From NCBI GenBank assembly GCA_013297775.1, contig JAAFIL010000016.1:1-64000 (forward strand): a stretch of 64,000 nt of DNA, written 5' to 3'. The translations under genes and the position numbers were made by a program. Origin of the DNA: Bacteroidota bacterium (GTDB lineage: Bacteria > Bacteroidota > Bacteroidia > B-17B0 > Aurantibacillaceae). Below, piece by piece: positions 5,030 to 12,939 of the stretch (positions are counted from its first letter, which is position 1; each line of letters opens with the position of its first letter). Below the pieces are notes generated by a model, which made no database searches, was not told the origin of the DNA, and saw only the letters and a program-made list of their open reading frames with translations.

Positions 5030-6121
5030 ATGACAATTGCTGCCTTAGCCGATTGGTTGCCGCTTAAAGGTCAACCTTTATTAATTAGCGGACCCTGTGG
5101 TGCCGAAACACCTGATCAGGTTCTCGAAACGGCGCGTTTATTGCAAACCCATACCTCCATCAGTTTATTTAGAGCAGGTATTTGGAAACCCCGCACACGC
5201 CCTAATGCCTTCGAGGGTGTTGGCGAAATTGGTTTACACTGGCTAAAAGAGGTGCAGGCTTTGGGTTTAAAAACTACTACCGAAGTAGCCAATGCACAAC
5301 ATACCGAGTTAGCTTTAAAGCATGGGGTAGATGTGTTGTGGATAGGCGCACGCACCACCGTTAACCCATTTAGTGTGCAAGAAATTGCCGATGTGCTAAA
5401 AGGCGTAGATATTCCGGTGATGATTAAAAATCCCATTCATGCTGATTTACAACTTTGGTTAGGTGCTATTGAACGGGTTGCTAATAGTGGCATCACCAAA
5501 CTGGCCGCCATTCACCGCGGGTTTCATGTGTATGGAAAAACCAAATACCGCAACAAGCCATTTTGGCAATTGCCTATTGAATTGAGAACCATTTTACCGC
5601 ATTTGCCCATCATTTGCGACCCGAGCCATATTACAGGTAAACGCGAATTAATTTTACCTGTTGCACAAAAGGCTTTAGACTTGGGCATGGATGGCTTAAT
5701 GATTGAATCGCATTTAGACCCCAGCGTGGCTTTAAGCGATGCGCAACAACAATTAACCCCCTTCGATTTAAGCACTTTACTAAAACAATTAGTTATTCGG
5801 AGTGGGAGTGTGGCTAATCCGTTTTTGATGGATAAGTTGATGACCTTACGAAATAACATTGATGAAATTGATGAAGAAGTTTTGAATTTATTAAAGCGTC
5901 GTGTGCAAGTGATTGAAGAAATGGGTGTTTACAAAAAAGAGCATGGCATTCAAATTTTTCAATTAGAACGTTGGCAAGAAATTTTAAGAACCCGTTCGCA
6001 GTTAGCCGAAAAATTAGGGCTATCGCGTCAACACGTTGAAAAGCTTTGCCAATTGCTACACGAAGAAAGTATCAAAATACAAAATGAAGTGATGAATCGT
6101 AAGTTGGAGGAACGTGCGTAG
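5030..6121 (+). CDS. aroG: Bifunctional DAHP synthase / chorismate mutase
   Basis: This 363-residue cytosolic enzyme joins the first step of the shikimate pathway (phosphoenolpyruvate plus erythrose 4-phosphate to DAHP) to chorismate mutase, the branch point to phenylalanine and tyrosine. Residues 1-260 form a type I-beta DAHP synthase barrel: ISGPCGAET near the start, FRAGIWKPRTRP, TEVAN, LWIGARTT, IKNP, CDPSHITGKR and IESHLDP all fit the family. Residues about 268-360 are an AroQ-type helical chorismate mutase (LRNNIDEIDEEVLNLLKRR...). This fusion is usual in Bacteroidota, where the mutase domain also takes part in feedback regulation. It stands alone here, with no other aro genes adjacent. 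The ATG at 5030 sits directly before the conserved domain. Confidence 0.93.
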   Translation: MTIAALADWLPLKGQPLLISGPCGAETPDQVLETARLLQTHTSISLFRAGIWKPRTRPNAFEGVGEIGLHWLKEVQALGLKTTTEVANAQHTELALKHGVDVLWIGARTTVNPFSVQEIADVLKGVDIPVMIKNPIHADLQLWLGAIERVANSGITKLAAIHRGFHVYGKTKYRNKPFWQLPIELRTILPHLPIICDPSHITGKRELILPVAQKALDLGMDGLMIESHLDPSVALSDAQQQLTPFDLSTLLKQLVIRSGSVANPFLMDKLMTLRNNIDEIDEEVLNLLKRRVQVIEEMGVYKKEHGIQIFQLERWQEILRTRSQLAEKLGLSRQHVEKLCQLLHEESIKIQNEVMNRKLEERA

Positions 6122-11408: not shown

Positions 11409-12509
11409 TTATGGCCCTTTAACCTTATGTATGCTTTCGTGTAGTGAATGTATTTTATCATTTTGAAGTTCCATGATACGTTGTAAAATATCTACCGAAT
11501 AGCCGCCACTTCCAGTTTGTTTATTAAATTCTTCTTTGTGTGAATAAGACTGATCGGCTAATTTTTTATGCGGCATTCGAAAACTTTTCAAAATATAAGA
11601 AAAGCCAAGTGCTGCTTCGGCTGCCTTCACGGTTTCTTCGGATGGATGGGTTTCTAAATTTTCGATGACGATGCTCCACACCGACTGTTTGGTTTTGTAC
11701 TTCCAATACATATCGCGTATAAATTGAAAGTTAAAGGGTAAATAACCTTCTTTAAATTTTTCATAGTCGGCATCTTTCAAATCGCAATTCCATAAGATGT
11801 GATCAAATAAAAACATAGGCATTTCAACGGCACCAGGGCCAATGTAAGGTTCAGTCTTATCTACTAAAATGGGTTCGTAGTAAAACCGCAGTTCGTTTGC
11901 AAAATAAGCGGGCGATACCAAACGTTTAGCATGTACAATCCCGTTAACCATAGATTCTATGTTATCGCGAATAACTTGGCATATACTCTCGAACTCTTTT
12001 CCTTCAAACGCTTTGTCATAAAGACGGTCGAGCATGATGATGGCCACGAGAAGATCGGAATACGCCATTTTCACACTTTCTACTAATGCCCGTTCGTCGC
12101 TTGTACCTGTATAGGTTCGCATGCGTTCGCCATTCGGATTCCAAAAGGTATAATGCAGTAATGTATCGCGTGGGGGTAAATTAGTTCGGGTACCTAGTTC
12201 GCACAAGAGTGGAATAAGTTCTGGCACCAACTGAACAGGTTCTGAACCTAATTTTTTAAGCGTCCCTAAAAATATACCCACATCACGCATGGCTGCCAAG
12301 CATTCCTCTTGCGAATACAACGCATACGTGGAAGGCAATGGCAGCAAGCGTTTCAACAAATCAGCTATTTCGTGAACACGTTTTTCGGTAGTTAACGTGT
12401 GTAATTGTTTTAAGGAGTTATCAAGACCAATAGGATCTAATCTTTGCACAGCAATAGGATTGGCAATGCCATAAACCGATAACACAAAGTGATCCGTAAA
12501 GTCTATCAT
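11409..12509 (-). CDS. PrnB-like haem protein (monodechloroaminopyrrolnitrin synthase family)
   Basis: The 366-residue product closely resembles PrnB, the haem enzyme that rearranges 7-chlorotryptophan in pyrrolnitrin biosynthesis and is structurally related to indoleamine/tryptophan 2,3-dioxygenases. The matching blocks, from memory of PrnB, are AAMRDVGIFLGTLKK (residues 72-86), TNLPPRDTLLHYTFWNP (109-125), RTYTG (131-135), FYYEPI (209-214), YIGPGAVEMPMF (222-233), RMPHKKLAD (311-319) and GSGGYS (333-338). His314 corresponds to the proximal haem ligand, His313 of PrnB, and the length (366 against about 361) agrees. No halogenase (prnA/prnC) or prnD gene is in the window, so the true substrate is probably another indole or tryptophan derivative. 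It forms an operon with the upstream SpoIIAA-like gene (7-base gap). Confidence 0.8.
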   Translation of the reverse strand: MIDFTDHFVLSVYGIANPIAVQRLDPIGLDNSLKQLHTLTTEKRVHEIADLLKRLLPLPSTYALYSQEECLAAMRDVGIFLGTLKKLGSEPVQLVPELIPLLCELGTRTNLPPRDTLLHYTFWNPNGERMRTYTGTSDERALVESVKMAYSDLLVAIIMLDRLYDKAFEGKEFESICQVIRDNIESMVNGIVHAKRLVSPAYFANELRFYYEPILVDKTEPYIGPGAVEMPMFLFDHILWNCDLKDADYEKFKEGYLPFNFQFIRDMYWKYKTKQSVWSIVIENLETHPSEETVKAAEAALGFSYILKSFRMPHKKLADQSYSHKEEFNKQTGSGGYSVDILQRIMELQNDKIHSLHESIHKVKGP

Positions 12510-12516
12510 AGGACTG

Positions 12517-12939
12517 CTACTCTTGAAGCCAAGCTAGGCAAGCCTCTTCCGATTGAAACATATCAATGGTTAAGTTACCTACTTTTGCTTCTTTGTTTAC
12601 TTTACTAACAGTGGCTACTGCAAAAATATCTTCTGCAACCACTACGCCTATTTTCCGTAAGCCCACGCGTTCTACTTCGCTAAACCATTGCATGGTTAAA
12701 TACCCTTGTACTTCTTTCGATAATACTTTTAGTTGGCGGTGGTCGCTAAGGTGTATTTTAATGTTGTGTTTTCTAATTAAAGAGGTAACAAACGTGCAGC
12801 CTTTTGTAACATCTTCGATGGTTAAAAAACCAATCCATTTGGCAATTACCAAATTGAGCGATGGAACGTAGCTAACTTCCACGTAAGATTCTTTCATTAA
12901 AACGTTTGAAACGGTGTTGTCTAAAATTTGTGTTTTCAT
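12517..12939 (-). CDS. SpoIIAA/STAS-like small protein
   Basis: A 140-residue cytosolic protein with alternating strands and helices (VSYVPSLNLVIAKWIGFLTIEDV, then KIHLSDHRQLKVLS, KIGVVVAEDIFA, TIDMFQSEEACLAWLQE). The pattern fits the SpoIIAA-like/STAS fold seen in many short Bacteroidota proteins of unknown role. The phosphorylatable Ser of true anti-sigma antagonists is not evident. It is the first gene of a two-gene operon, ending 7 bases before the PrnB-like gene, which suggests a shared job. The fold assignment is moderate and function is unknown. Confidence 0.6.
   Translation of the reverse strand: MKTQILDNTVSNVLMKESYVEVSYVPSLNLVIAKWIGFLTIEDVTKGCTFVTSLIRKHNIKIHLSDHRQLKVLSKEVQGYLTMQWFSEVERVGLRKIGVVVAEDIFAVATVSKVNKEAKVGNLTIDMFQSEEACLAWLQE

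Follow-up and report, generated by a model that had tools for sequence, protein, structure and literature searches.

The question raised by this locus is which reaction a PrnB-type haem enzyme serves in a Bacteroidota genome, and together with which other protein. The gene lies in a stretch of 64,000 nucleotides (the window) from a Bacteroidota bacterium. PrnB catalyzes an unusual ring rearrangement, and its activity is so far unreconstituted with the purified enzyme. The features of the locus are collected in Table 1.

Table 1. Coordinates of the PrnB-family gene and its upstream neighbor in the window.
Feature	Position	Strand	Basis or remark
PrnB-family haem protein, 366 aa	11409..12509	(-)	ATG to stop; Pfam, phmmer, residue alignment
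Partner gene, 140 aa, STAS/SpoIIAA-like fold	12517..12939	(-)	7 nt separate its end from the PrnB start codon
Gap between partner stop codon and PrnB start codon, 7 nt	12510..12516	(-)	sequence

The Pfam profile PF08933 matched the ORF with 139.4 bits (cut-off 27, E 1.8e-40), and the alignment covered ORF residues 41-354 and profile positions 31-367 of 387. A phmmer search against the PDB sequences returned P. fluorescens PrnB (PfPrnB, 2v7i) with E 3.6e-66 over ORF residues 16-348 and the PrnB of a Flavobacteriales species (FbPrnB, 9dfg) with E 3.2e-42. The sequence-only reading had taken the protein for a full-length PrnB homologue, which these scores bear out. The motifs named there (NLPPRDTLLH, YIGPGAVEMP, RMPHKKLA and GSGGYS) are all found in the ORF, and His314, named there as the haem ligand, aligns with the haem ligand His313 of PfPrnB. 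This histidine is invariant in 19 sequences and is the predicted axial haem ligand. Ser334 of the GSGGY motif is likewise invariant; it corresponds to Ser332 of PfPrnB and to Ser319 of FbPrnB, a closing-loop serine touching the substrate carboxylate (PMC11791213), and is predicted to make the same contact, as is the GPGAVEMP loop. Tyr322 aligns with Tyr321 of PfPrnB, whereas Tyr120 stands at the position of PfPrnB Val117 and FbPrnB Tyr104, where a tyrosine makes the FbPrnB pocket narrower (PMC11791213). The predicted structure was a poor model (mean pLDDT 59, rmsd about 9 Å); its top Foldseek matches were all PrnB (2x67, E 2e-14), followed by IDO-type enzymes. At the level of sequence, the similarity to the solved PrnBs settles the fold.

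The window protein thus resembles PfPrnB (2v7i, 2x67) in its full-length homology, the haem histidine, the equivalents of Tyr321 and Ser332 and the GPGAVEMP loop. It differs in being only 35-38% identical to the aligned proteobacterial PrnBs, in Tyr120 replacing Val117, and in its genome, which lacks prn halogenases and contains a gene for a STAS-fold partner. With FbPrnB (9dfg, 9dfi; PMC11791213) it shares phylum, protein family, the tyrosine at the Val117 position and the closing-loop serine. However, FbPrnB is about 30% identical to it, falls outside the operon clade on a long branch, has GAGGGQIP in place of GPGAVEMP and carries leucine at the Tyr321 position.

The enzyme had been described as known mainly from pyrrolnitrin producers, a view which falls short of the present record: PrnB outside pyrrolnitrin clusters is already known. 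FbPrnB, crystallized in 2024, comes from outside a prn cluster (PMC11791213), and PdnC is a PrnB homologue encoded in the paenidepsin lipopeptide cluster of Paenibacillus (PMC13036774). PdnC, likened here by its description, is similar to the window protein in standing outside pyrrolnitrin synthesis and differs in lying beside an NRPS, with a predicted but unproven tryptophan hydroxylation. PrnB genes outside prnABCD are also present on Streptomyces plasmids. On one of these, a PrnB-like gene is grouped with a flavin-dependent oxidoreductase gene and a ketosynthase-like gene, without the prnABCD order (L010:7929-12321); on another, the gene that comes after it overlaps it and encodes a GNAT acetyltransferase (L011:7968-9961).

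The gene had further been called an orphan, which does not hold. Each of the 15 intact Bacteroidota PrnB loci found, namely 13 from Cytophagales, the window and a second genome of its genus (G027), has the partner gene upstream of PrnB in the same orientation, and in 12 of them it stands immediately next to PrnB. A gene for a SAM-dependent O-methyltransferase (PF00891/PF08100) stands between the two in three loci (L041, L042, L044), and a related methyltransferase gene is divergent, about 0.6 kb upstream, in two further ones (L045, L046). All of the first three loci compared (the window, L004 and L005) contained the partner, though L004 belongs to a different lineage and has other flanking genes. 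Partner and PrnB, 7 nt apart in the window, likely form a two-gene operon and would be co-translated. Two Cytophagales genomes carry broken PrnB genes, split in two frames in one case (L047:8381-9558) and cut to 224 aa in the other (L048:8980-9654). No partner was present near either; this is no more than suggestive, since the sample is small (n = 2) and L047 may contain an assembly error. None of the PrnB loci examined in Burkholderia, Azotobacter and Streptomyces contained the partner, and a scan for σ70-type promoters gave no more matches than expected by chance. A link to the gene for DAHP synthase/chorismate mutase (5030-6121) was rejected, as this gene is not kept in the relatives, where the flanking genes differ.

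The specificity of the link was determined in 390 Cytophagales genomes. The PrnB profile detected the gene in 15 of these, with 13 intact copies, and the scores of the partner profile fell into two well-separated classes, one formed by the partner subfamily (≥ 145 bits) and the other by a general STAS/SEC14-type family (≤ 85 bits), the latter occurring in about half of the genomes and often in many copies. The subfamily is present in 14 genomes, comprising every one of the 13 in which PrnB is intact and a single one (G570) of the 377 others. The Fisher p-value for this co-occurrence, 2e-23, is uncorrected for relatedness and overstated, because some genomes are close relatives. Within the window's genus, PrnB and the partner occur in the same two of 40 genomes, and the sole family member in a third genome is distant (19% identity). 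Second copies of the subfamily lie away from PrnB in six genomes; given these and G570, the link of the subfamily to PrnB is strong but not exclusive. In four related genomes (L083:8284-9984; L082, L084, L085) the second copy is located after genes for a cNMP-binding protein and a Flavodoxin_2/FMN reductase.

For the partner, AlphaFold2 gave a model of an α/β SpoIIAA-like fold with a mean pLDDT of 78. It was matched by RsbS with Z 9.8 (98 residues, rmsd 2.8) and by SpoIIAA with Z 9.0 (104 residues, rmsd 3.2), whereas the best Foldseek E-value was only 1e-3. The window protein had no Pfam match above cut-off, and one relative reached 18.2 bits with PF11964 (SpoIIAA-like), below the cut-off of 25; distant family members are annotated as STAS/SEC14 domain proteins. 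The signature of the subfamily consists of an invariant Cys48 and His63-x-Ser65-(Asp/Glu)66. Every operonic copy (15 of 15) and every second copy has His63, whereas at this position the aligned members of the general family have W, K or another residue; Cys48 is also present in part of the general family. A Shewanella SpoIIAA-like protein (2q3l; PMC2954212) shares the fold (VIA Z 8.7, rmsd 3.3, 108 residues). It is 15% identical to the partner, and the HxS(D/E) signature is the partner subfamily's own. The SpoIIAA-like proteins of Shewanella were proposed to be carriers of non-polar molecules, and the fold is also used in protein-protein switches (PMC2954212).

Membership of the PrnB family, the retained haem and carboxylate residues, the conserved gene pair and the lack of a tryptophan halogenase are established as far as sequence can do so. 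The reading that we slightly favor from these data is a minimal, halogenase-free, tryptophan-modifying operon of Bacteroidota, in which a His-ligated PrnB-type haem enzyme would act on L-tryptophan together with a STAS-fold accessory or carrier protein. PrnB takes tryptophan as an alternative substrate, and its product from tryptophan is an aminophenylpyrrole. The window enzyme would accept free L-tryptophan without a chlorine, or a closely related derivative, and might bind it amine-to-iron as in the solved PrnBs, which bind tryptophan and 7-chlorotryptophan with the amine on the iron, and in which O2 can displace the amine in the ferrous state (PMC11791213). The haem would then be reduced, O2 would bind and tryptophan would be oxidized. 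The single most likely product would be the dechloro analogue of the normal PrnB product, 3-(2-aminophenyl)pyrrole, with indole hydroxylation or an oxindole as the main alternative. The partner may act on or with PrnB, either by binding and thereby activating or stabilizing it or by carrying a non-polar product. In the lineages with the third gene, the methyltransferase would act later, and the product would probably be methylated.

How far other explanations account for the locus depends in part on genes elsewhere in the genome. PrnB is the second enzyme of pyrrolnitrin synthesis, and a complete pathway with its halogenases outside the window could be imagined. In the prn clusters of Burkholderia and Azotobacter the gene order is halogenase, PrnB, second halogenase, Rieske gene. 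The tryptophan halogenase profile PF04820, which recovered both PrnA and PrnC on the Azotobacter plasmid used as positive control, had no match in the whole genomes of the window organism, of G027 from the same genus (PrnB 60-61% identical to that of the window) and of G501 from the Fulvivirgaceae (about 50%). The earlier statement that no pyrrolnitrin halogenase accompanies the gene is thus correct beyond the window, for the whole genome as judged by PF04820. A halogenase of another family would escape this search; nevertheless, we consider a pyrrolnitrin pathway extremely improbable, and since the genome has no tryptophan halogenase, a non-pyrrolnitrin role is likely. An ordinary tryptophan 2,3-dioxygenase-like enzyme supplying the kynurenine pathway would fit the haem fold, which is that of IDO/TDO. 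However, the family score is that of PrnB, and a separate tryptophan 2,3-dioxygenase family gene (PF03301) is already present in 16 of the 17 PrnB-carrying Bacteroidota genomes, so that PrnB is very unlikely to be the kynurenine enzyme and its replacing the dioxygenase was ruled out. The partner, in turn, might be a STAS-type regulator, i.e., an anti-sigma antagonist or stress switch of unrelated function which merely shares a promoter with PrnB. RsbS and SpoIIAA are its closest folds, and the second copies adjoin the cNMP-binding and Flavodoxin_2 genes. The residue assigned by eye to the SpoIIAA phospho-serine (Ser74, at the start of the second helix), however, is alanine in two operons, and the linkage to PrnB persists across loci with different surroundings; we consider a regulator improbable.

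A different chemistry of the enzyme itself is harder to dismiss, albeit still unlikely in our judgment: a PrnB-fold oxygenase could add one oxygen to tryptophan without rearrangement, giving 5-hydroxytryptophan as Luz15 does or a 2-oxindole as MarE does, and the methyltransferase, where present, would methylate the new hydroxyl. Monooxygenation is known in the same superfamily, and the Paenibacillus PdnC is a predicted tryptophan hydroxylase, though this activity is itself unproven. An O-methyltransferase at three to five of the 15 loci needs an acceptor, and the known product of PrnB has no hydroxyl. As the methyltransferase suggests a hydroxyl or an amine on the product in some lineages, hydroxylation stays the main rival. 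Rearrangement is favored by the nearest characterized relatives, which are true PrnBs, and by the GPGAVEMP loop and the Tyr321 equivalent, which the window protein retains and which both differ in FbPrnB.

PrnBs bind tryptophan tightly, yet the purified enzyme is inactive; a partner protein is one of the components suggested as possibly missing (PMC11791213). The STAS-fold protein is therefore a concrete candidate for an assay. As prnA-prnD are enough for pyrrolnitrin production in E. coli, some PrnBs can do without it. The further-reaching proposal is tentative, and we regard it as doubtful: the STAS-fold protein would be a dedicated activating or product-carrying partner of PrnB, and the operon would make an undescribed metabolite, an aryl-pyrrole or indole that derives from tryptophan, is not halogenated and is methylated in some lineages. 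If true, a functional partner would explain the inactivity of purified PrnB. The operon suggests that Bacteroidota have a small route from tryptophan that does without a halogenase. No paper on a PrnB-STAS operon was found in a literature search outside of which most subscription papers fell; the locus combines a known enzyme family with a conserved gene context that seems to be undescribed.

In the PrnB tree, the operon clade and the proteobacterial PrnBs are sister groups. FbPrnB and two PrnBs from Streptomyces lie outside on long branches, which makes their position uncertain. A 404-aa protein of genome G220 (L051:8704-9918), which scored 28 bits and thus just above the PrnB cut-off, was excluded as a divergent IDO/TDO-like Bacteroidota protein rather than a close PrnB. 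In another large order of the class, none of 396 genomes had PrnB, a result which is uninformative, as no positive is known there. A viral origin was rejected, since no relative was found in viral contigs by protein or by alignment, and so was recent foreign DNA: the GC content of the PrnB gene (0.399) is unremarkable against that of the window (0.368, sd 0.03). The window's genus nests beside a Fulvivirgaceae sequence, which, together with the presence in two of 40 species, fits either transfer or multiple loss. The tree of the partner is congruent with that of PrnB for the supported groups, small supported pairs included; the window and L005 group with supports of 100/98 and 100/99, respectively, and with L004 added the values are 96/94 and 98/98. 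For close Cytophagales pairs, dN/dS is 0.02-0.08 for PrnB and partner alike, indicating strong purifying selection on both genes.
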